From Hysterangium stoloniferum (Eukaryota; Basidiomycota; Agaricomycetes; Hysterangiales; Hysterangiaceae): DNA of 64,000 nt. How positions within the stretch are numbered: position 1 is the first letter of the stretch; every line of letters begins with the position of its first letter. The notes beneath the pieces are model-generated. The model was not told where the DNA came from and made no database searches. It was given only the letters and a program-made list of their open reading frames with translations. A program made the position numbers and the translations under genes. Positions 1-49,130 of this stretch are shown here, one piece after another. Where the stretch lies: the NCBI GenBank assembly GCA_015178975.1, contig WHVD01000174.1:1-64000 (forward strand), given 5' to 3'.

Positions 1-2990
1 GGAGAAATACCATGACTTCGCGGATGTTTTTAGCAAGCAAAAAGCTGACCGGCTTCCGCCTCACAGAGAATACGACTTAAAAATCGATCTTGAAGATGGC
101 GCCCAGCCACCCCTAGGACATATTTACCCGCTTTCGTCCACGGAACTATCCGCAATCCGTGATTTCCTGGATGAACATTTGTCCATAGGTTTTATTCGAC
201 CCTCAAAGTCTCCTTTTGGAGCACCTGTTTTGTTTGTCAGAAAAAAGGATGGATCCCTTCGACTATGTGTTGATTTTAGAGACTCAATGCTGTCACCAAA
301 AAGGACAAATATCCACTCCCACTTATATCTGACCTGCTCGATGCTCTGCGGAATGCCCGGATTTATACCAAAATAGATCTCAAGCACGCCTATCATTTGG
401 TCCGGATTGCCACGGGCGACGAATGGAAAACCACTTTTAGAACCCGCTATGGGCCTTCGAGTGGTTGGTCATCCCTTTTGGACTCACTAATGCCCCATCT
501 GTTTTTCAGCGTTTTATCAACGACATTTTCTCCGACATGCTCGATGTATGCGTCATTGTTTACTTGGACGACATTCTTATCTAGTCCGAGAATCCCGCGG
601 AACACGACAAACAAGTCCGTGAGGTTCTCCGGAGGCTCAGACAACATGGTTTATTCGCAAATGGTAAAAAATGTACTTTTGACACGGACTCCGTGGAATA
701 CCTAGGTTTCATGATGGGACCCGATGGACTCCACATGGACGAAACTAAAGTGCAGGTCATCAAAGATTGGCCCGAACCCCGAAAAGTTAAAGATATCCAA
801 TCCTTCCTCGGCTTTGCCAATTTTTATAGACGTTTTATCCGTGGATATTCCGACATCACGGTACCCCTTACCCGTCTTACGCGTAAGGGTACTCCGTGGA
901 ACTTTAACGATAAGTGTCAAAAAGCTTTCAATCTTTTAAAAAATTCTTTTTCCACAGCTCCTATTCTGTCGCATTGGAAACCGGACTTCCCGCTCATTGT
1001 TGAAACGGACGCCTCCGACTATGCACTTGGAGCCATTCTCTCTATCCAGGACTCCGACGGAGAAGTTCACCCCGTGGCTTTTCTGTCCCGGACTTTTACC
1101 GGAGCAGAGCTCAACTACGACGTTCATGATAAAGAACTTCTGGCAATCTTTTCAGCTTTCAAAGCGTGGCGACACTATTTGGAAGGTTCAGGAGCTCCTA
1201 TTGACGTTGTAACAGATCACAAAAACCTGGAATACTTTTCTACCACAAAACTCTTGACCCGTCGGCAGGCCCGCTGGTCTGAATATCTCTCCGCCTTCAA
1301 CATGATTATCCGTTTTCGACCCGGCCGTCTCGGCGGCAAACCCGACGCTTTAACTAGACGATGGGACGTCTATCCTAAAGAGGGGAGCAACGACTATGCA
1401 ATGGTAAATCCGCACAACCTGAAACCTATCTTCACGAATCAACAACTTACCGCATCGGTCCACGCAACTTTCCTCGTCAATCCCATTGTCCGTGGAATTA
1501 TCATTATGGATATCGAAAAGTTACATCAAGATATTCTATCGGCAATTCCGCTAGACCCAGTTACTAAAGCTCATCTGGACAATCCCGTGGACCCCGATCA
1601 ACCTCGGTGGTCTCTTGATCAACATGGTTTCATTAGACTTGACGATCGTATCTATGTACCGGACTTCGACGGCCTCCGCCTCAGGATCCTTCAATATAAA
1701 CATGATCATCCACTCTCAGGACATTTTGGGTACAACAAAACTCTATCATTAATAAGAAGAGAATACACTTGGCCCGGACTCCGTGGATTCGTTAAGCACT
1801 ATTGTAAATCTTGCACTACTTGTCCCCGCTCGAAATCTCAGCGACACAAGCCATACGGCCTTTTGAAACAACTCCCGGTACCGGAACACCCGTGGAATTC
1901 TATATCTATGGATTTCACTGAACACCTACCGGATTCCAAAGGCTTTTCCGCTATTCTAGTCATTGTTGACAGATTCTCAAAACAAGGTATATTCATCCCT
2001 ACTTATGATACAATTACGTCCGTGCAGTTAGCGGAACTTTTCATTATCCACGTATTTTCCAAGCACGGAGTTCCGTCCCACGTGACTTCCGATCGAGGAT
2101 CAGAGTTTGTGTCTCACTTCTTTAGATCCCTCGGAAAATCCTTGGACATGACATTACATTTCACGTCCGGACATCACCCGGAAGGTGACGGACAAACCGA
2201 ACGCGTCAACCAGACATTGGAACAATACCTCCGCGTATATTGCAACTATCAACAGGACAATTGGAAAACCTTGTTACCACTTGCAGAGTTTGCTTACAAC
2301 AATGCACCCTCGGCCACTACTGGCGTTTCCCCGTTCTTTGCAAATAAAGGATATAATCCAAATATTACAGTACATCCAGAACGAAATCTCGCCTCTGTTC
2401 GTGCTCAAGAGTTCACCACGGACCTCCACGAGCTCCACGAGGAACTCCGGACTGCAATATTGTCCGCCCAAGAGCAATACCAACATTCAGCGGACAAACA
2501 CCGGATCCCGCCACCAAACTTCAAGATTGGCGACCGTGTTTATGTCAAAGCCCAATTCTTCCGGACTACCCGTCCATCAAAGAAGCTTGCTGAAAAATAT
2601 TTAGGTCCCTTTGAAATTATCGCACAAGTAGGTTCAGTTTCTTGGACTCTACGGCTTCCGGATAGCATGCACGCGGTACACCCGGTATTTCATGTCTCTA
2701 TGCTAGAACCTTGTACTGCTAACACTATCCCGGATCGCGTGAAATCTCCGCCTCCTCCTGTCGTCATTGACGGAGAACCCGAGTTTGAAATCTCTCAGAT
2801 TTTAGATTCAAAAATTGACAAGCGTCGACGCACTTGTAAACTGCTTTACTTGGTCAAGTGGGCGGGTTACGAGGGCACCGATGAAGAAACCTCATGGATT
2901 TTGGCCACGGAACTCGGTAATGCCACGGAAATCGTTACTGACTTTCATACAGCTTACCCACTCAAACCTGGACCATTATCGTCTCTCTGA
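1..2990 (+). pseudogene. gypsy pol: RT-RNase H-integrase-chromodomain
   Basis: Polyprotein of a chromovirus that copies element RNA into DNA and integrates it. The RT part (about 2-700) is broken by several frameshifts near 285, 455 and 585 and a stop just after the YLDD motif. From about 693 a 765-codon open frame runs to the stop at 2990. It contains RNase H (TDAS, KELLA, TDHKN, PDALTRR), an HHCC integrase finger (residues ~330-385, ending CKSCTTC), the integrase core with D (SMDF), D (TSDRG) and E (GQTERVNQ), a GPF module (KYLGPFEII) and a C-terminal chromodomain (LYLVKWAGYEGTDEETSW). The methionine at 693 is internal to RT and is not a true start. Chromodomains of this class direct integration to marked chromatin in characterised elements. 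Confidence 0.95.
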
Positions 2991-3193
2991 CCGCACCCCG
3001 CGGACCCCGTGTTACGTTTGGACTCATTTTCACTATTCCCTGTCGCCCTATGTCTCTCCTTGTTTTTACAGGTTCTGACATGTCTTGTCAAGTCTTTAAG
3101 CGGACTCTCCGCGGACTTTGGCTTTGACTTTTATTTTTTATGTTTTTCACGCTTTACTTTTATGTTCAATTACTTTTATTTCTATATTACTTT

Positions 3194-4184
3194 TCAGTCT
3201 ACATTTATGGGACTATGTTTTTTCCCCTCTGCCTCAGCTACCTCCTCAGGGAGCTCCGCGACCTCCGCGACCTCCGCGGCAACCCCGTCCTCATCCGATC
3301 TGGCATCCTCGGAACTCCCGACTTGCGGCTCTTCAAAGACATAGCCGCCATACTCCGCCAGGAACTTCCAAAACTCCTCGCGGAGTCCGGACAGCTCCTT
3401 TGCCACCACAATTTGGACTTTGTTGCTCTTCCGGAGCAACTCGTTTTGGGCCTCGATGCCCTCGGCGATCCGTCCAAGGACCTCATCCAACCCGGACAAC
3501 CCGTCCGTCCCGCTTATGTCTCGCGCCCCGGATCCCGTGGCCTGCTCGTGCACAAGCGAGCACCTCGCCTTGAGGTGCGCGCATTGATAACATCCCGGCC
3601 CCCGGCCGGCCTTTCGGTTGCATTCCGTGTTCCGGTCGTTGCAACCGGAACACCGCAGCTCGTTCCGCGTCGGAAGACGGACTGGCGCCGCCTTCCTTGC
3701 CTTCTGTTGAGTTGGTCAGTCTCCGCGGGTATTCCATGGACATGAGGCCTACCTTTTGGGGCTCTCTGGCTCCCCCTCGGACTCCGACTCCACCTCTGTC
3801 GCTTTGCGCTGAAAATCACAAGTCAGTAAAAAATCGACAAGTGAATTTGGGACTTACTTTTCCCGCAACAATGGCGGCCCTCTCCGCGGCCAACCGGGCT
3901 TTCTCCGCAGCCACCCGGGCGTTCTCCGCGGCCACTCGCGCAGCCTCCTCCACCTCACGTTCCCTCTCCTTTGCGGCCTCTTCCTCCGCGGCCAATGCTT
4001 CCTGGTACTCTCTGTCCAGGGCCTCCTCAGCCTCCCTCGCCTCTCTCTCTGCTGCTTCACGAAGCTGGCGCTGCTCTTCTCGCTGCGCCAACAATTGGGC
4101 CGCCGTCCACGGCGCCTGATACGGAGTGCCCGTGGAGGGCCCTGCTGTCGGCATTGGCTTGCGTGGTGTTGGTTTTGGTCCCAT
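3194..4184 (-). CDS. Antisense gypsy-borne gene with GAL4-type Zn2Cys6 cysteine cluster
   Basis: Not a named family as far as I can tell. I read three exons. Exon 1 is 4184-3858 (109 codons, starting MGPKPTPRKPMP, then a long E/A/R-rich probable coiled coil). A 49-nt intron (3857-3809, GTAAGT...TTTTCAG) leads to exon 2 (3808-3753, acidic). Intron 2 starts at 3752; exon 3 ends at the stop at 3194. Exon 3 carries C-x2-C-x6-C-x9-C-x2-C-x6-C at 3652-3560, the exact Zn2Cys6 spacing, then a helical stretch and an acidic C-terminus. Using the first AG (3704) puts exon 3 out of frame; an AG 8 nt further in restores the cysteine frame, so that junction is uncertain or carries an indel. The gene is convergent with pol. 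The cluster suggests nucleic-acid binding; the role is unknown. Confidence 0.75.
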
Positions 4185-4237
4185 AGTGACGAAGATGGGG
4201 GTAATAAAGAAGAAGAAATTTCTATTTTTCAATTTTT

Positions 4238-4244
4238 TATATAG
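4238..4244 (-). promoter_or_regulatory. TATA box of the antisense gene
   Basis: On the minus strand the sequence reads CCTATATAAAAAATTG, with the TATA about 55 nt upstream of the ATG at 4184. The copy at 38521 has ATATAAAA at the same distance from its ATG (38463 versus 38521), so the promoter geometry is conserved between two diverged elements. Confidence 0.6.
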
Positions 4245-4382
4245 GCTCGTCGCGTTTGAACCTTACCTTCCAGATCACATGACTCTTTGACACATACGTG
4301 TAACCGACATGACTTTTGACACATGCGCGTAGCCGACAAGAACCTTATTTAGGTCTAGAGCCTCTTTGGGACTTCGGCATAA

Positions 4383-4393
4383 AGGGAGGATAC
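4383..4393 (+). other. Polypurine tract of the gypsy element
   Basis: The purine run AAAGGGAGGA followed by TAC directly precedes the TG of the 3' LTR. The same arrangement (minus strand GGGGGGATAC then TGTTATGAG) adjoins the LTR at 38349, which fixes that element's orientation. Confidence 0.75.
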
Positions 4394-5214
4394 TGTTACG
4401 ACCAGACAAATCCCGCCGGACTCCGGGCACTAACTCGTACGCCCCCACGCGCTACAAGCACCAATCGTCTGTTTATAAGATTTCCCACCTGGACTCCGTT
4501 ACGTCAAGACTCGTTACGTTCGACCTCATTAAGACACATATCAGTCACCGGACTTCCCCCAGACCCCGTCTCTGTCTATGTCCGTCTTCGTCCCACACAT
4601 CAGTCACCGGAACCCGCTTAGAATCCCGTCACCGCTCTAATCGAGCCCCGTTCCCGTTTTAGTCAAATGACCTGTCACGATTTAGGACTCCGCTCCCGCT
4701 CCGTTTCCCGTTATGGGTTATGCTTTGTCACGATTCGGACTCCGCTCCATTCCGTCCCGTTCCTAACACCAATTTGGTGTTTACTATTCCCGTTCTATGT
4801 TTTGCTCGTTTCGTCTCATTATTACTGGATTCGGTATGTCATGCATTCCACGGTCTATATAAACTGGCAGATGTTGTACATACAATCCAGTCAGAAAATT
4901 AGCTTAGATTCCCCCCAGTAATCTAATACATTTTCCTCTCTAAAAACCCTACTCTTATCAGACCGCTCGCACTAGTCGGAGCCCACGGGCTCCGGCGCAT
5001 CTATCTCTCTCGACTATCTCGATTCACGACTCTCGACTCACGACCTACGACTCACGACCCACGAACCCCTGCCCGGACTCCCCGGGATTCCCGTCCGCCT
5101 GTCTGAAATTGGACAACACGATCTAGCGAGGGCGCAGCCTATAAGCTGAAGCCAAGTCCTACCGGATATCCCGCGGGTTTCTCCGGAAACCCGGCCTGAG
5201 TGTGTATCCTAACA
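4394..5214 (+). repeat. 3' LTR, family A (821 bp)
   Basis: Starts TGTTACGACCAG and ends CCTAACA, the TG...CA termini of LTRs. A TATATAAA at 4855-4862 is a probable promoter TATA box. A full-length second copy stands alone at 53825-54661 with a 5-bp target duplication, confirming both ends. The last ~80 bp (…TATAAGCTGAAGCCAAGTCC…) are also found in the family B LTRs, so the two families are related. Confidence 0.9.
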
Positions 5215-5668
5215 CCGTGGAGTAAATGTCATACCGAATCCAGTAATAATGAGATGAAGCGAGCAAAACATAAAACGGGAATAATAAACACCAAATTGGT
5301 GTTAGGAACGGGACGGAACGGAGTCTGAATCATGACAAAGCATAACCCATAACGGGAAATGGAGCGGGAGCGGAGTACAAATTGTGACAGGTCATTTGAC
5401 TAAAATGGGAACAGGGCTCGATTAGAGTGGTGACAGGATTCTGAGTGGGGTCCAGTGACTGATGTGTGGGGCAAAGACGGACATAGACAGAGATGGAGTC
5501 CGGGGGAAGTCCGGTGACTGATATGTGTCGTAATGAGATCGAACGTAACAAGTCTTGACGTAATGGAGTCTGGGCGGGAAATCCTATAAACAGATAATTG
5601 GTGCGTGTAGGGCATGATGGCGTACAGGTTAGTACCCGGAGTCCGGTGGGATTGTCCAGTCATAACAA
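5215..5668 (-). repeat. Inverted, truncated family A LTR
   Basis: Reverse complement of about 4394-4860 of the adjacent LTR. It begins at an internal LTR position and ends at 5668 with the complement of TGTTATGACTGG. Together with 4394-4860 it forms a long inverted repeat with a ~350-bp spacer. Apparent reading frames here are LTR sequence, not genes. Confidence 0.9.
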
Positions 5669-5935
5669 TGGGAGTGGGTGTGCTGTGGATGGGAGTGGGT
5701 GTGCTGTGGATGGGAGTGGGTGTGCTGTGGATGGGAGTGGGTGTGCTGTGGATGGGAGTGGGTGTGCTGTGGATGGGAGTGGGTGTGCTGTGGATGGGAG
5801 TGGGTGCATCTGGATGGGTGCGTCGTGGATGGGTGCATCGTGGATGGGTGCATCGTGGATGGGTGCGTCGTGGATGGGTGCGTCGTGGATGGGTGCGTGG
5901 TGGATGGGAGCAGGTGGATGGGTGCGTGGTTGAAA
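5669..5935. repeat. Compound minisatellite: 21-bp then 15-bp units
   Basis: About six near-perfect copies of a 21-bp unit (GTGCTGTGGATGGGAGTGGGT less one base; 5670-5806) pass into about eight copies of a 15-bp unit built on GTGCGTCGTGGATGG (5807-5935). Both periods are multiples of three, so all frames stay open and give false repetitive proteins on both strands. The array abuts the inverted LTR terminus at 5668. Confidence 0.95.
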
Positions 5936-6791: not shown

Positions 6792-7693
6792 ATGAGTTGG
6801 AACCCGCGTAATCCGACTGGATCAGCCTATGAACCGCCAATTCAATATGGATATTATCCTGCGACCAGTGCAGCCCAATACCCCCCACATGTATACACCA
6901 GCAACCAGTATTATGCCTCTCAACCATCACATCCCGTGCACCTGAATGATCCACGCTACGTATATCATTCGCCAGAGCCCCCCCACCACAACGAATCACC
7001 TCGCTCTAACGCTCGTCCTCGCGATCATTCTCATTGTAGGTGGCCTGCGCCACGGGAAACACATCTGATCTCTCTTTTGTTGCAGCACCCCTGCTCCGCA
7101 CACCAAATGACTTGCTTCAGCATTTCGACCGCCGCGCAGGCACGGGGATACTGTGGGATATGAGATTCGCCCCAAGCACCTCACGCAGCCCCGGCGAGCA
7201 CCGCCACAAGATTCCTCGCGGCCATGTCCAAAAAGTCGCGACAGAGCCAGGGACGAGGAAGATGCGGATTACAATATCGTCTAGACCCGAATGGGAGATC
7301 GAGGTGGCCCAGGATAGTCAAAATGAACGAGGGTTCTTTTCCGTCGAGGACGTGCTGTGCTCCATAACTGATTATCTGCGTCGACCTATAACCACTGATG
7401 AGTGGGAAGGCATGCCTTCCGATCGCCAGAAACAACTCCACCTTTTGCGGCACGATAGACTTGCGGACGATGTGGTGGAATTCAATGCCGACATTAGCGT
7501 TAGATATGTAGATTTGCTTGGGTGGAAGACGGTTTTTGGCGGGTTGACACCTCTTGGACCAACAGAGTGGGGAATGGAGGTTATAGATCGGAGAAGGGTT
7601 CCCGAATTCAAGAAAAGAGGTTTGTTTTTTTTTAAAAAATAACAACCTTCTGCCTGGAATGTTCTGCTAACGAAATTTCTCCCAGAGAACTAA
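6792..7693 (+). CDS. DUF6699-like protein (intact host gene)
   Basis: Three exons: 6792-7035, 7086-7619 and 7686-7693. The introns are 50 nt (GTAGGT...TTGCAG) and 66 nt (GTTTGT...CTCCCAG), both phase 1, and joining them gives one uninterrupted frame ending VPEFKKREN. The start is the ATG at 6792. The N-terminus is Pro/Tyr/Gln-rich and disordered. The C-terminal half (LLQHFDRR, LWDMRFAPSTSR, WEIEVAQD, DYLRRPITTDEW, VRYVDLLGWKTVFGGL, WGMEVI) has the order of conserved blocks seen in the basidiomycete DUF6699 family, whose function is unknown. It is the only gene here with no visible lesion. The family name is from memory of the pattern, not a search. Confidence 0.75.
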
Positions 7694-38520: not shown

Positions 38521-39519
38521 ATGAGGGTTCAGGATTAAAGCCTTTCCCATCCAGGCCAACTGTCGCCCCCATATCAGATCTGAGTGGACCCCTGAATGCA
38601 CAAGAGCATTGATGTCTTCCTGAAGAAAAGAAGAAGGCATGTGAGGAGGAGGAACATACAGAGAGGGAAGAGCTGAAGGTGATAGAGGTGGAGGAGAAAA
38701 GGTTGGCAGAGGAGGAGGCTGCTCGCAAGCATTGGGAAGCTGAGCTTGCAAAGAAGAAGCAGAGGGAGGCTGATTGGGTGTGAGAAGAGGAGGCGAAAAA
38801 GAAGTGGGAGGGTAAAGTAAGTCAGAAATTCCTCATTCTTGTAACCTCACTGACATCCTTTTACAGTGCAAGGTGGTGGCACCATCGGATTCCAATGATG
38901 AAGAGGATGGGGAGGATGAGGAGGAAGTGCCAGGGCCTTCAAGCCCTAAGGTATGTTCGGACTCCTATTATTTAGTTGTTTTTTTTTTTTATTTTTTCAG
39001 TTATAGAAACAAAAATGGGCCCTCAAGGTGGGGCCTGAAAACAACCCAAAGTGCAATCAATGCACTAACTGAGGTTGGACTTGCCATCCATGGACCAATG
39101 GTCAGGGCCACACATGCCAAGAGTGTGCCAATCAAAAACTCGGTTGCATCTTCCCGGATACTGATGGAAATGGGCCATATCAAGAGCAGCAGGCAGACAC
39201 ATTGGAGGAGCAGAACTGACTCCTGCACACATATTTCTTGGAAACAAGTTGGTTCCGACACAAACAACTGCGACAACAAGTGCTCTTCACCAAACAATTG
39301 CGACTATTGGGCTTAGGGCTGGAGAAACAAACCAGCATCATAGAGTATCTCAGAGAGCAACTCAAACAGTATTTAGAGGTGTCAAGTTCCAATGAAGCTG
39401 GGCCAGGGGTTGAGACATCGGAGAAGGTCAGTGAGAAGGAGGTGTCAGTGGCCATCGGTGTAGGGGAAATCTCGGAAGCTGGGGAAGAAGAGGAGGTTGT
39501 TGAATCGACTTTTAGATAG
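38521..39519 (+). pseudogene. Antisense-gene copy 2 with Zn2Cys6-like cluster
   Basis: Same gene plan as 4184-3194. Exon 1 (38521-38816) starts with a G-K-P/S-R-P-rich stretch after a 1-nt frameshift and becomes a Glu/Lys/Ala-rich helix (KRLAEEEAARKHWEAELAKK). Intron 1 is 38817-38866 (50 nt, GTAAGT), exon 2 is 38867-38950 (acidic, 28 codons, phase 0) and intron 2 is 38951-39000 (50 nt). Exon 3 holds C-x2-C-x6-C-x10-C-x2-C-x6-C at 39052-39147, a Gln/Leu-rich helix and an acidic tail ending at the TAG 39517. In-frame TGA codons after GTG and AAC fit CGA-to-TGA decay. Sequence identity to the first copy is low but every structural feature is kept. Confidence 0.75.
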
Positions 39520-39589
39520 TTGAATACAATGGTTTTAAAAAAAAACAAACAAAAACAAAAAACATAAGACATAGTCAACAGTCTGTGGA

Positions 39590-40078
39590 TAAGAATCAAC
39601 TTCCACCTCCTGACTTTAAGATTAGAGACTGAGTATTTGTTAAAGCCGAGTGTTTCTGAACCACTAGACCCTCCAAGAAGCTCTCTGAAAAATATCTAGG
39701 TCCTTTTGAAGTTATAGCACAAGCCAGCACACTTTCATGGACTCTTTGGCTTCCTGACAACATGCATGCAGTGCACCCAGTATTTCATGTATCTATGTTA
39801 GACCCACATTATACCAGATTGCATACAACCACCACCACTACCACCTGTGATTATTGACAGAGAACCTGAATTCGAGATATTGGAAATCCTAGACTCCAAG
39901 ATCAACAATCGCTAATGCTCATGCAAGTTACTTTATTTGGTCAAATGGGCTGGCTATGAAGGTACAGATGAAGAAACTTCATGGATCCTAGCCACAGAGC
40001 TTGGCAATGCATCAGAAATTGTCTTAGGTTTCCATCAAGCATACCCAAACAAACCCGGTCCCTTAGGCTCTCTATAGA
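39590..40078 (+). pseudogene. gypsy pol 3' end: GPF module and chromodomain
   Basis: Matches the last ~160 codons of the pol at 1-2990: TRPSKKLSEKYLGPFEVIAQ, MHAVHPVFHVSMLD and, after a frame change, CKLLYLVKWAGYEGTDEETS ending GPLGSL and a stop. It lies on the same strand as the antisense-gene copy before it, unlike the convergent order elsewhere, so it belongs to a different, abutting element. Confidence 0.85.
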
Positions 40079-40604: not shown

Positions 40605-42171
40605 CAGTGGCTTCCAAAACTGTCCCAATGTTTTGGTAATTCTCAATAAATGCTTTATAACCTACCAAATAATTTTTTTAAAACAGTGAAATTATTCTCA
40701 CATATACCTTAGCATACTAGCTTTGATATACCCAAATATTACATAATATATAGATGGATATTGGTGCCACAGTGAATATTTAAAAATGACCAATCATTGG
40801 GACAGTTTTGCAACCCTCTCTTTTCACACATTTCATTATATCATATTATATTCTAGAGGGCCAGGAAAATTACACAAAACTTCACGTGACATCTATGTGA
40901 TTCTCTAATTAATATGTGACATGAAACATAACATTTTAACTATCATTCTTATCATGAAAACTATTTGCCCTCTCAAAAGAGAACAAGCCATCTCCCTCCT
41001 ACAAAATGGACTCTCCAATAGGAATGTAGCCTCTACAACAGGTCTTAGCAAATCTACTATCAGTAGAATCGCTCAGGAGATAGAGATAGACAAAGAAAAC
41101 CTGAAAGGAAGACGTCCATCCAAGCTTTCTCCTACTGACCAAAGGAGGATCATATATCAAATCACCTCTGGCAAACTAGATAATGCTATCCAGGCCACAC
41201 ACTACATTAATTCCATCAATAAATATCATGTCTCACCCAAAATAGTTAGAAGGACCTTGAAATAGCATGGTTTCAAAGCTGTAGTCAATGCAAAAAGACC
41301 TTTGCTCAAGGCTCAACATAGAAAGGCCAGGTTAAGCTTTGCCCTCAAGTACCAAAACTGGACTGTGGATGATCAGAAAAGGGTCTTGTGGTCTGATGAG
41401 ACCAATATCAATAAGATTGGGTCAGATGGACATCAATATGTGTTGAAGAAAGCTGGAGAACCACTTTCTGATAGGACAACCCAACTTACAGTCAAGTATG
41501 GAGGTGGAGATATCATGGTGTAGGGCTGTATGGGTTGGAATGGAGTGGGAATGCTTGCAGAGATTGAAGGAAGGATGGATTCTGCACAATATGTGGAGAT
41601 CCTGGCTCAGCATTTGTCCCAGAGCATTGAAGATTTGGATATTCCAGCAGATGAGGCCATTTTCCAGCAGGATAATAACCTAAACACATATCCAAGATGG
41701 CACAAAAATGGTTTTTTGAAAATCATATTCAGGTGTTAGACTGGACAGCACAGTCTCCTGACCTGAATCCCATAGAACATCTTTGATTCCACCTGAAGAA
41801 ACAGCTCTCATAGGAGAGGGTGGAAGTGGAATGGGCAAAGATTGAGCCTCAGAAGTGTCAGAAACTGATTGAAAATATGCCCAGAAGACTTGATGCTGTA
41901 ATAAAGCCTAAGGGAGGCCATACAAAGTACTAGAATAACAAGATATCTGATTCAAAAAGGGTGGTTGCAAAACTGTCCCAATGATTGTTCATTTCTAAAT
42001 ATTCACTGTGACACCAATATTCATCTATATTATGTAATATTTGGGTATGTCAAAGCTAGTATGCTAAGGTATATTTAAGAATAATTTCACTATTTTAGAA
42101 AATTTATTTGGTGGGTTATAAAGCATTTATTGAGAATTACCAAAACATTGGGACAGTTTTGGAAGCCACTG
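40605..42171 (+). mobile_element. Tc1/mariner DNA transposon (1567 bp)
   Basis: Perfect-looking terminal inverted repeats (CAGTGGCTTCCAAAACTGTC and longer) are flanked by TA on both sides (40603-40604, 42172-42173), the target duplication of this superfamily. Long inverted repeats extend about 130 bp, including GTTTTGGTAATTCTCAATAA. One broken transposase gene is inside. It interrupts host-derived sequence continuous from 40604 to 42174. Confidence 0.95.
40954..41933 (+). pseudogene. Tc1-type DD34E transposase
   Basis: Starts MKTICPLKREQAISLLQNG with two helix-turn-helix regions (NRNVASTTGLSKSTISRIAQ), then RVLWSDETNINKIGSDG (first D), AIFQQDNN (second D) and QSPDLNPIEHL (E). Stops at about 41264 and 41521, a frameshift near 41680 and a TGG-to-TGA stop after EHL break it. 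Length when joined, about 320 residues, is normal for Tc1 transposases. Confidence 0.9.
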
Positions 42172-44636: not shown

Positions 44637-45065
44637 CTCCAGTCATTATAGACAGAGAACCCAAATTTGAAATCTCACAAATTTTAGACTCAAAAAAATA
44701 GATAATCATCGACACACTTGTAAACTGCTCTACTTGGTCAAGTGAGCAGGTTACAAGGGTACAGATAAAGAAACTTCTTGGATTTTGGCCACAGAACTCA
44801 GGAATGCCATGGAGATCATAACTGACTTTCATACAGCATACCCACTCACACCTGGCCCATTATCCTCTCTCTAGCTGCATTATCCACAGACTCCATATAC
44901 ATTTTGGATTCATCTTATTATTCCTTGTCACCCTATGTCTCTCTTGCTTTGCAGATTTTTGACTTGTTTCATTTTTGTTTTATGTGGACATTCTGCAGGT
45001 TTTCTCATTTTTCACACTTTCTTGTTAAAGTATTTAAAAAAAATGAGAAAAAAAGGTATATTATT

Positions 45066-45562
45066 TCAATCATCTATGACTATAGGTTCTTCTCCCACCT
45101 CTACAAATTCCACGTGCAACTCTTTCAATTCCTCAGCCCCCACAGACTTGTCCCTCTCCTTGAACTCCTTGGAACTCCCATCCTCAGACTCCTCATAGTC
45201 CTGATCCCCATAGTTTTTCAGGAACTCATGAAATACCCCATGGAACTCCTGAAGACCTCCCACCATTGTCTTCTGAACATTGTTGCTCTCCTCTAGCAAC
45301 AGGTTCTGGGCCATAATGCCTGCTATCCACTCCAATACATCTTCTAAGGCCCCTGGCCTTTCCACATGCCATCCCATTTCCTGGGACCCAGACCTCATGG
45401 CTTCCTGCACCAAAGAGCACTTGGCCTTCAAGTGCACACAGGGTCAACAACCTGGGCCCTGACTGGACTTCCAGAAGTAATCTATGTTCCAGTCATTACA
45501 ACTAGAATACCACAGGTCATTTTTCAACTTTAGCTGGGCTGGAGGGAATCTCCACACATTCT
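45066..45562 (-). pseudogene. Antisense-gene copy 3, exon 3 only
   Basis: Convergent with the pol relic as in the first element. Residues parallel copy 1: HLKAKCSLV, LEDVLEWIAGIMAQNLLLEE, EFHGVFHEFLKNYGD and an acidic end. Upstream the cysteine cluster is visible but decayed: first and third cysteines are Tyr and a TGA precedes the fifth, while GPGC..CVHLKAKC is kept. The 5' exons are lost because a copia LTR begins at 45563. Confidence 0.75.
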
Positions 45563-45873
45563 TGTTAGATTTAGTGACTCAGCACAATAGCTACAAGTTG
45601 TGTACCATTGTGGGTCTATAGTGTGTGCTGGGTGAAATTTGCATTCACTCATTTGTGTCTGTGTCTGTGTCTGAGCTCTCACACTTCTTGTGTTTTGCAT
45701 CCACCTCCCTCCTTCATTCTAATAGGTTATGGGCCCCCGGCTCTTACTAAATAACACCAAATTTACCACCAAACTTCTTCTTGTTAGCCCTATCACTTCA
45801 TCACCACCCATAGCATCACTCTACCAGCATCATGTCTTTGCCCAACTTCCTTACTCCTATCACAACCAAAGTT

Positions 45874-46374: not shown

Positions 46375-47407
46375 ATGTCTAATCCCATTCCCTTGGGCTC
46401 TGGCCCCCACCAGTGCTCCGACACAGCACCCAATCCTGATGAGATTCGTGCCCCTCCCCCCATCACATCTGCTGTGCAGCCCCCACTGACAAACTCAGAG
46501 CTTTTTGCCATCCTCCAGAACATGGCTTTGCAAATTGCATCTCTCCAGCAGCAACCTCAGCCTTCCACCACACCACTCCAACCGCTCCCCCCCTGGCTCT
46601 GGTCCACCACTACCCCCTCCCACCCATGCCATCCCCCCACAAGTCCCCTATGCTTTTCAATCCACCTCTCCGCCTTCAGCGATGGACGGTTTCTTGCCTC
46701 CACCAGGGCATTCGAGCTCTGGTGCATCATCTTCTTTGATCTCCCTTTTCCCCGATATCAAAGAGACAATGCTGCTGGCTATCATCCGGCATTCCTTCCG
46801 GCCTAATCAACTTGCTAAGCTGGACACACGCATTCATACCAAGCCGAAAAAACCTACTTATGAGTTTCAGGATGGTGTATATGTGCAAGCAGAACGTGCA
46901 TCAACAAAGGATTTTCCCAATTTTGAGTCCCTCTACTACCCTCTCTCACACTACTTCGGCGTCCTCCACGCTCATGTGCTTTTGGGTCCCCCCTCCTCTT
47001 TGATAACTACCTTTATCCTCGGCACTTCAAGCTACCTCTCTTTGCTCTGCTCCTGGTATTTGGAGTATGACTGGATGGCACTATTAAACTACCATTTCGC
47101 TTTTCACTCTAAGCGCTTGGCCGAGATGGCTAGGGGCGATTTCTCCCATTGGGGAGAACTGGATGCCTACCTTCAGGGTCAGTATCTTCTCGGCCACCCC
47201 CACATTCGGCCAGGAAAATCTTCCACCCCTCGCGCTGCTAATGATACTTCGAAGTCTTCACCTTGCGGAGACTTCAATTACCGAAGGTGCCTTAGGGAGA
47301 AATGCTATTGGGTCCACAAATGCAAACTTTGTGACAGTAGTGACCATGGGGCTTCCTCTTGCCCTCTAAGAAGTCCACTTAGGGGCATGGCACGGTGGGG
47401 AAATTAA
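46375..47407 (+). pseudogene. Ngaro gag-like ORF
   Basis: Pro-rich N-terminus (from MSNPIPLGSGPH at about 46375), a frameshift near 46590, then LFPDIKETMLLAIIRHSFRP, a helical body and a C-terminal cysteine region CGDFNYRRC..EKCYWVHKC..C with CKLCDSSDHGASSC. The CCCH plus CCHC arrangement is known in gag-like proteins of DIRS/Ngaro elements. A short frame at 46235 (MFGRKQLATPKPP) may be its true start in another frame. Confidence 0.7.
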
Positions 47408-47465
47408 CCTGCCATCTCCTCACCATAGCCTTCTTGGCACGTCAATTACCCAGTCACCAGCTCAC

Positions 47466-49130
47466 TTGTCCCTGCATCCCCTCCCTTTTCCTGATCTGTT
47501 TACTCCACACTCCCTTCCACCTCTCCGCCCCAACTCTGACCCCCGTTGCAATCTTGTACCCTCATCACCCCATATGCTCCCCACCATTTCCTCCCCACTA
47601 AATTTGCATGCATGGGACTTCCATCTTCGGGACTACCCTGACTGCACATTTGTCACTTCATTACTTCACATAATACAACATGGTGCTCTTATTGGTTTCA
47701 ATGGTGACGATCATAAGCAATATTGCAAAACCTTAGCATCAGCCTTTGAGCATCTGCAGGAAGTTTCTTCCTTTATTAACAAGCTTTTATTGAATTCGCA
47801 TGCTGTGGGCCTGTTCCCCACTCATCCCCTACCCCACTTCCGCTGCTCTCCTCTAGGAATCGCTACGCGTAAACGCAGCTCCAAACTCTGGCTTATCAAC
47901 CACCTTTCATGGCCTACATCGTCATCGGTCAACCATGGGATTCCCGATTCCAAAGCCTCTATCACTTACAAATCCTTTGAAGTAGCACTTCAAGTCATTT
48001 GCCAATTCGGTCCTGGGACCCTTTTAGCTAAACTCGACCTTAAAGAAGCATTCCATCATATTCTAGTTGCTCCATCACAATGGCATCTCCTCGGTTTCCA
48101 CTGGGAAGATAATTTCTATCACGTGATAGTTCTTATTTTCGGCCTGCGTTCTGCCCCTTATATATTCAACCTGTTTGCTGAAGCCTTACACTGGATCATT
48201 GTGTGCCACATTCCAGCTCCTCTTCGCCACTATCTCGATGATTTCCTGCCCATATTTTGTCCTGGCACATCCCTACCCATTGCTAATGCTGCCATCGATT
48301 GGTGCCAAGCACTTGGCCACCAACTCGGCCTCTCATTTCAACATGAAAAAAATATCCAGCCATGTACAAAACTAGAGTATCTAGGGTTGGAAATTGATAC
48401 TATTGCCATGGAAGCATGCTTGCCAGCTAACAAACTGACCTATCTCCGCGAGATTCTCAGTGCTGCTCTTATCGCCCCCACTTTTACATTGAAGCAAGTT
48501 CAGGAACTCATTGGGTTCCTCCAGTTCTCCGCGCAGGTTATCCCTCATGCTCGAGCATTCATCTGATGCCTTATCGACTTCTCTATGTCATTCACTTCTC
48601 CATTCTCACGCCGCCACATACTGGCTTACGCTCGGGGTGATATTCAGTGGTGGCACACCTTCTCTCATGCCTGGAATGGCATTGCCATCATCCAGCCATC
48701 CCTTCCCACACTGCATGTGTATACTGATGCCAGTGGTCGAAAAGGCATTGGTGGTATATTTGGCAACCAATGGTATTCTGCATGCATACCTCGTCATTTT
48801 CGTGAGCATGATATCCAATTGAAGGAGATATACGCAGTTCTCCAGGCCATTACACACTGGGGTTCTCTTTGGTCTGGCCATCATATTGTGTTCCATGTTG
48901 ATAACTCTTCCATTGTCACTGCACTCACACAGGGGACCACCAGAGCACACTTTGCAATGTCCATTGTCCGTGATATTGCCATGCTAGCATCATTTCTGAG
49001 ATTCTCCTTCTCTTCCTCTTGGCTTTCTTCTGAGACGAATGCCCTTGCTGACTCTGCCTCTCGCTTTCAATATGCACGCTTATTTACTCTTAACCATTCT
49101 TTGTGTAAACAGAACTGCTCGAACAACCCC
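47466..49130 (+). pseudogene. Ngaro reverse transcriptase-RNase H
   Basis: One frame with a single TGA at 48564 (between AFI and CLIDF, readable as former CGA). RT motifs: SSKLWLINHLSWP, LLAKLDLKEAFHHILV with the catalytic D, FGLRSAPYIFNLFAEAL and YLDDFLPIF. RNase H: VYTDASGRKGIGG, IYAVLQAITHW, FHVDNSSIVTAL and NALADSASR. It makes the cDNA of the element. Similar RNase H endings, decayed, are found in the 18-28 kb tandem units. Confidence 0.9.

Follow-up and report, generated by a model that had tools for sequence, protein, structure and literature searches.

What is a spliced gene with six regularly spaced cysteine codons doing on the antisense strand of a retrotransposon? The question is raised by the beginning of the window analysed here, a 64,000-nucleotide stretch of DNA from the false-truffle fungus Hysterangium stoloniferum (Agaricomycetes, Phallomycetidae), whose 111-Mb assembly was searched for relatives of the gene. 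The reading that we favour, with a probability of roughly 55%, is that this is an antisense accessory gene of a chromovirus lineage, the product of which would bind as a homodimer to the inverted CGG repeats (dyads) of its own family and thereby promote its own expression.

Carrier element and antisense gene

The contig opens inside a gypsy element, in which RT pieces in broken frames are followed by RNaseH, integrase, SH3_Tf2-1 and a chromodomain. Complete copies elsewhere in the genome are about 8.1 kb long and possess two LTRs, and the copy at locus L015 contains a gag frame (Retrotrans_gag) and a pol frame of 1304 codons. With gag, RT, RNaseH, integrase, chromodomain and LTRs all present, the carrier of the antisense gene is a Ty3/gypsy chromovirus, i.e., an LTR retrotransposon. 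The features of the window copy are as follows.

1-705: RT pieces upstream of the pol frame, split between frames
585..2990 (+): gypsy pol frame with RNaseH, integrase, SH3_Tf2-1 (Tf2-1-type SH3) and chromodomain
3194..3703 (-): exon 3, with cysteine cluster, probable coiled coil, acidic tail and stop
3347..3505 (-): predicted long helix (residues 71-123 of the exon-3 frame, structure model), probable dimerising coiled coil
3560..3652 (-): C-x2-C-x6-C-x9-C-x2-C-x6-C cluster
3704..3752 (-): intron 2, 49 nt
3753..3808 (-): exon 2, acidic linker
3809..3857 (-): intron 1, 49 nt
3858..4184 (-): exon 1, charged helical-type N-terminus
4235..4243 (-): TATA-like box, about 50 nt before the ATG
4394..5215 (+): 3' LTR, about 821 nt
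4394-4855: U3 of the 3' LTR, also upstream of the antisense promoter, with three CGG-N3-CCG repeats

The three-exon gene thus runs from its ATG at 4184 to 3194 on the minus strand, between the end of pol at 2990 and the start of the 3' LTR at 4394. A sequence-only reading had proposed these coordinates, the two 49-nt introns, the TATA-like box, the antisense placement between pol and LTR and the cysteine spacing, and all of them proved right when the sequence was read again. A 29-nt repeat is situated upstream of the antisense TATA box (window 4277-4338).

In the window copy, exon 2 is off by one base in length compared with 46 of the 47 other aligned rows, L044 being like the window copy, so that splicing at the conserved acceptor leaves the gene out of frame. 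Taken together with the RT split between frames, this means that the window copy is most simply defective, and intact copies exist elsewhere in the genome. A 57-nt second intron, which would keep the window frame open, was rejected because the other copies have a 49-nt intron with the frame kept. A partial, inverted LTR copy abuts the 3' LTR at window 5214-5667 and creates a large palindrome with arms of 77-275 nt that are 88-92% complementary; after this inverted LTR, two adjoining minisatellites with 21-nt and 15-nt units occupy window 5668-5927.

The layout is repeated across the genome. From 1342 first-look candidates, 150 relatives were scored, and 111 of these 150 are without a stop by our own count. 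Among 20 loci picked from the scored relatives and read around the gene, pol lies on the opposite strand beside exon 3 in all 20, exon 1 is present in 19 (partial in L024 and L028), and an LTR flanks the far side in 19; L027 has neither exon 1 nor LTR. In an alignment of 48 rows, which represent 46 distinct loci since L004/L009 and L007/L010 are the same places, the first intron donor is GT throughout, and the second is GT in 47 rows and GC in one.

Selection and diversification of the gene

The rows of this alignment were picked from protein matches with mostly open frames and are therefore biased against stops; a stop in the exon 3 frame occurs in one of the 48, and the median dN/dS of this frame over 1111 pairs is 0.198. 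Four other frames of exon 3 gave medians of 1.2-1.75, and the mirror frame gave 0.247 but contains stops in 48 of 48 rows. For exon 1, four frames have values of 1.0-1.3, and the gene frame (median 0.298, stop in 12 of 48 rows) and the mirror frame (0.430, stops in 11 of 48) are told apart by dN/dS alone. At the same 20 loci, the median dN/dS is 0.210 in exon 3 and 0.196 over 801 codons of pol. Pairwise diversity is highest in the introns (0.215 and 0.207), followed by exon 1 (0.165), exon 3 (0.108) and exon 2 (0.068). The six cysteines are kept in 286 of the 288 cells of the 48 rows, and their codons alternate between TGC and TGT. The gene is therefore real and selectively maintained, with constraint on exon 3 as strong as that on pol. 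The sequence-only reading had hinged on purifying selection at the cysteine positions across element copies, and this is what the dN/dS values and the silent TGC/TGT switching reveal.

GC-rich open reading frames on the sense strand, such as 3128-3745 (+), were considered as well and rejected for exon 3, their frames being either unconstrained or interrupted by stops. The dN/dS values in six frames rule out a chance open reading frame. That the gene is such a frame, or a host gene captured recently, is hardly conceivable in view of the selection, the conserved introns and the presence of the gene at one and the same position in four or more diverged families. No support for this explanation was found, and the protein and viral-contig searches gave no homolog outside H. 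stoloniferum: among 5.8 billion proteins there were two matches only, both from this fungus, and among viral contigs none.

The window itself contains two decayed relatives of the gene, from families that we call B and C, the family of the window copy being A.

38532..39519 (+): decayed family-C relative, more distant; adjoining pol piece 39576-40074 on the same strand
45069..45569 (-): decayed family-B relative of exon 3, 38-40% identity, antisense beside pol pieces 44639-44871 (+)

The family-C remnant is an exception in strand layout, and the surrounding stretch is heavily rearranged. Genome searches with the B and C remnants led to 150 scored loci each, out of 785 candidates for B, some of which are family-A loci again, and 485 for C. 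In 12 of 13 loci outside family A proper, pol is on the opposite strand at the 3' side of the gene; at L053 an LTR lies between the gene and the opposite-strand pol, and at L056 no pol is shown. Families A, A', B, C and D all keep the position of the gene, with a middle spacing in the cluster of x9 (A and B) or x10 (C and D), and family C has the two-intron plan of family A by inspection. Family D is represented by L063, which carries CYRCSIRNMTCWKQKVKWGGTCYPCAVLKLPC. The exon-3 protein shares 63% identity with that of the window in A', 42-43% in B, 24-30% in C and 23% in D. In the pol pieces, identity reaches 82-84% at L049-L051 (C) and at L063 (D); the N-terminal C piece has 67% and the decayed L052 70-77%, and most values at the decayed B loci L053-L055 fall within 74-82%. 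The frame is thus conserved in related elements, a point on which the sequence-only reading had likewise depended, and at least four diverged families carry the gene antisense beside pol. At three loci of an unrelated gypsy element (about 40% identity in the chromodomain), no such gene was found in the 1.3 kb read from the SH3 domain onward, of which about 1 kb lies past the end of pol.

Divergence is fastest in the 3' part of the element. In best BLAST pieces, L025-L028 are 92-96% identical in 3' pol compared with 79-86% in the gene, and L057 and L059 are 94-95% compared with 73-74%; the LTR of family C can hardly be aligned to that of family A. Across the loci L009-L028, the synonymous divergence of exon 3 (0.188) is about twice that of pol (0.090), which makes an exchange of 3' modules between element lineages likely, judged from these sequence comparisons.

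The predicted protein and the inverted CGG repeats

The predicted protein of about 290 residues consists of a charged helical-type N-terminus, an acidic exon 2, the six-cysteine cluster, a long helix and an acidic tail. The spacing of the cysteines agrees with the Zn2Cys6 pattern C-x2-C-x6-C-x5-12-C-x2-C-x6-8-C (PF00172). The Pfam Zn_clus scores are 8.3 bits for the window cluster and 12.4 and 15.6 bits for others, all below the gathering cut-off of 21, and of seven members scanned four gave a Zn_clus match with an E value of 10 or less. Families A, B and D are without the Gal4 pattern C-x2-C-R-x2-K-x-K-C, family C has C-x2-C-x-K-R-x3-C, and the families compared with Gal4 lack most of the basic residues expected in the first half of a canonical cluster. 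The protein therefore has a Zn2Cys6-like plan and is not a member of the family by the Pfam test; of the GAL4-type zinc cluster named in the sequence-only reading, the spacing stands, whereas the family membership is not supported by this test. No Pfam match to the TRP28 domain (PF04195) was found in the proteins scanned.

A structure model built from three sequences is poor overall (mean pLDDT 55) and leaves the cysteine cluster unmodelled, and it is confident for a helix at residues 71-123, with pLDDT block means of 76-94 for residues 71-120. The long helix predicted behind the cluster may form a dimerising coiled coil. A profile search against the PDB gave weak matches to LEU3 (E 0.93) and PPR1 (E 6.7), and matches to talin coiled coils at E 0.012. 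The halves of the cluster may also be swapped with respect to the canonical order: the first half of family B alone matches Zn_clus positions 16-31 with 14.8 bits, the other seven of eight cluster fragments gave no Zn_clus match, and summed BLOSUM scores point to a swap in each of the four families when Gal4 and LAC9 serve as reference, but with five references clearly so only in B. Tentatively, on this sequence comparison, the first half may look like the second half of a canonical cluster.

Zn2Cys6 dimers are established to target inverted CGG repeats, with a spacing set by the linker and the coiled coil. In the window copy, such repeats are dispersed along the element.

50..5173: 33 dispersed inverted CGG repeats, 15 CGG-N3-CCG and 18 CGG-N5-CCG (about 1.7 expected each)

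A whole family-A element, with one LTR counted, contains 23 CGG-N3-CCG and 23 CGG-N5-CCG dyads compared with about 2.4 expected. In pol, shuffles that hold the protein and the codon usage fixed give expectations of 1.8 for N3 and 2.1 for N5; the observed numbers of 11 and 15 were reached in none of 1000 shuffles, and over 832 inverted classes none of 1000 shuffles reached either score. When 53,248 spaced trinucleotide pairs in A pol were scored against 200 such shuffles and those seen at least four times were ranked, CGG-N5-CCG came first (15) and CGG-N3-CCG second (11), with about 2 expected. The gag frame, the last 187 nt of which overlap the pol frame, has five N5 dyads (0.80 expected; 0 of 1000 shuffles) and two N3 dyads (0.31 expected; 27 of 1000). 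At the level of words, GGACTCCG occurs 10-15 times per copy in five copies with both LTRs counted (about 0.4 expected, L015 and L022), and CCGYGG 41-57 times per copy in five copies with both strands counted. The over-represented words were found in LTRs, gag and pol, in all three frames. In four non-independent copies, the pol counts of CGG-N3-CCG and CCGYGG were higher than in every one, or almost every one, of 1000 shuffles. No enrichment was found in family A for GGC-N3/5-GCC, GCG-N3-CGC or the everted CCG-N3/5-CGG.

The arms CGG and CCG can pair, and of the 20 GGACTCC places in L015 (both LTRs counted) 19 are on the plus strand, a bias for which a symmetric dimer site offers no explanation. 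The inverted repeats might accordingly act in RNA and independently of the protein, as small hairpins or as a GGACU mark that serves packaging or modification. We regard this explanation as quite improbable: other inverted trinucleotides able to form hairpins show no enrichment in family A, and CCGYGG is present on both strands in pol.

Family C has a spacing of its own. A whole C element contains 14 N3 and 9 N2 dyads compared with 2.0 and 1.6 expected, and only two N5 dyads. One C frame has five N3 dyads (0.45 expected; 0 of 1000 shuffles) and a second has four (0.73; 2 of 1000); in the pair scan of C pol, CGG-N3-CCG ranks second. Over the whole C element TCG-N4-CCG outscores CGG-N3-CCG, and GGC-N3-GCC is slightly high in C (2 compared with 0.26 expected). 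Twelve of the 15 N5 dyads of A pol have a codon-level counterpart in C, and none of these counterparts is a dyad, in six cases despite identical amino acids. Of the 11 N3 dyads of A pol, four are shared with C. The A' loci L057 (one N3 and two N5) and L059 (two N3 and three N5) compare with an expectation of 0.2-0.3, and none was seen in L063 of family D (1.3 kb) or L054 of family B, at near-zero expectation. The dyad enrichment comes from no more than two lineages, A and C, that have near-intact copies. The abundance of inverted CGG repeats with family-specific spacing in these elements is an observation that is new here.

The background consisted of 101,816 bases in 54 pieces with A- and C-like sequence masked, and it showed no enrichment, with six N3 and three N5 dyads against 4.0 expected for each. 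Other spacings range from 1 to 10 in it, and everted CCGCGG occurs nine times compared with 3.7 expected, which makes the CCGCGG motif less specific. The gypsy control L066, with a dyad expectation near zero, is too CpG-poor to have power as a negative control. Better retention of dyads in old copies was not seen in 18 copies, in which 860 of 1209 dyad triplets were kept compared with 1728 of 2498 other CGG triplets.

Fungi hold many Zn2Cys6 factors, and the dyads could be sites for one from the host that the element uses as promoter or enhancer, with the antisense protein doing something else. This is unlikely, in our judgement, because the dyads extend throughout gag and pol, beyond the promoter, and two families that share the host have different spacings. 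On the side of a host factor, CTCCGCGG is enriched here (6 compared with 0.21 expected), and the site of NirA is CTCCGHGG as quoted in the accessible part of PMC4559421.

Proposed function and known systems

In the favoured mechanism, the antisense gene, with its own TATA-like box and two introns, would yield the zinc-cluster protein of about 290 residues, which would bind as a homodimer to inverted CGG repeats, N3 and N5 in family A and N3 and N2 in family C. The element would have accumulated these dyads in its LTR, gag, pol and the antisense gene itself, and the protein of each family would recognise its own DNA and act as an LTR activator and/or an anti-silencing factor. Because U3 is situated upstream of the antisense promoter and, in its 5' copy, would drive the sense RNA, one set of U3 dyads could serve both. 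We infer transcription, zinc binding, dimer formation, DNA binding, the link between protein and dyads and the outcome from the plan of the protein and the distribution of the repeats. An element-encoded cluster with a probable coiled coil, and a spacing that changes with the protein, fits a self-specific DNA-binding regulator, and the acidic tail together with the density of sites leads us to favour activation or anti-silencing. With established Zn2Cys6 proteins (GAL4-type, PF00172), the antisense protein shares the six-cysteine spacing, a predicted helix behind the cluster, the acidic tail and inverted CGG repeats as the presumed site; it differs in its Pfam score and in the canonical basic residues. 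The regulatory or targeting role suggested by the sequence-only reading thus gains indirect support from the family-specific repeats across the element.

The HBZ gene of the retrovirus HTLV-1 is spliced, lies antisense at the 3' end of an LTR element and encodes a bZIP protein. The gene described here agrees with HBZ in its splicing and its antisense placement, and it differs in protein type and in the kind of element. By analogy, its product might be a repressor or serve copy-number control, via the protein or via sense-antisense pairing, and the overlap of the antisense gene with the 3' end of the genomic RNA and the position of U3 upstream of both promoters would suit such a role. We consider this improbable, as the acidic tail seems more like an activation domain, and a protein constrained as strongly as pol speaks against a role of the RNA alone. 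It is very doubtful that the protein is an integration-targeting factor which tethers integrase or steers copies toward or away from CGG-rich element DNA. The protein is element-encoded, dyads inside elements could mark nests, and pol carries a chromodomain, all of which would agree with targeting; the chromodomain, however, is already a targeting module, and no connection between the protein and integrase was seen.

Beyond the favoured reading of an activator of its own expression lies a broader and more tentative one, possible in our view, in which the zinc-cluster dimer reads family-private CGG spacings as a self-recognition code, so that each family marks, activates or de-silences its own copies only. 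The dyads would then have been written into the coding sequence partly by synonymous changes, and protein and spacing would co-diverge.

The closest structural precedent is provided by plant Retand/Tat gypsy elements, which possess an antisense TRP28 ORF between pol and the 3' LTR, as does the fungal element with its antisense gene (PMC11963269, in its available text). TRP28 is found there in 97% of the Retand antisense-ORF clusters, with predicted DNA binding and a proposed regulatory role; the same text names HBZ and describes the roles of plant gypsy antisense accessory genes as not known. Retand, however, is a plant non-chromovirus with TRP28, whereas the present element is a fungal chromovirus with a six-cysteine cluster, two introns and family-specific CGG dyads. 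Functionally, the closest precedent is VANC of the Arabidopsis VANDAL transposons, for which the available text of PMC5735166 reports a short motif with a high density in the cognate element and a form that varies between related families. A motif dense in its own element and different between families is also seen here, for two families and with putative binding. The VANC motifs are found mostly outside coding sequence and often as tandem repeats, by which they are said to have spread (PMC5735166, same text). VANDALs are Mutator-like DNA transposons, whereas here the carrier is an LTR retrotransposon with dispersed inverted repeats that also lie in coding sequence. Tandem repeats with a 21-nt unit in exon 1 (window 3881-3942) carry CTCCGCGG, which recalls the spread of VANC motifs as given in that text.

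No description of such an antisense gene in fungi was found in the open-access literature, among the matches listed, and the word antisense is absent from the available part of a review of fungal LTR retrotransposons (PMC3248453). A predicted protein plan combined with predicted DNA sites of family-specific spacing amounts to a concrete and cheap test. If protein and sites match, this would be a further, independently evolved system of sequence-specific self-recognition in a transposable element, and a retroelement could embed regulatory sites throughout its coding sequence. If the self-recognition code holds, a co-divergence like that of VANC and VANDAL would have arisen in retroelements, with a different protein fold and over entire coding regions.

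Elsewhere in the window, a frame at 7040-7639 (+) matches DUF6699 with 75.5 bits. A helix-turn-helix frame at 40909-41262 (+) resembles the start of a transposase, with every Pfam match below its cut-off, and the RVT_1 match of 32.6 bits at 47370-48563 (+) is the reverse transcriptase of a different retroelement.
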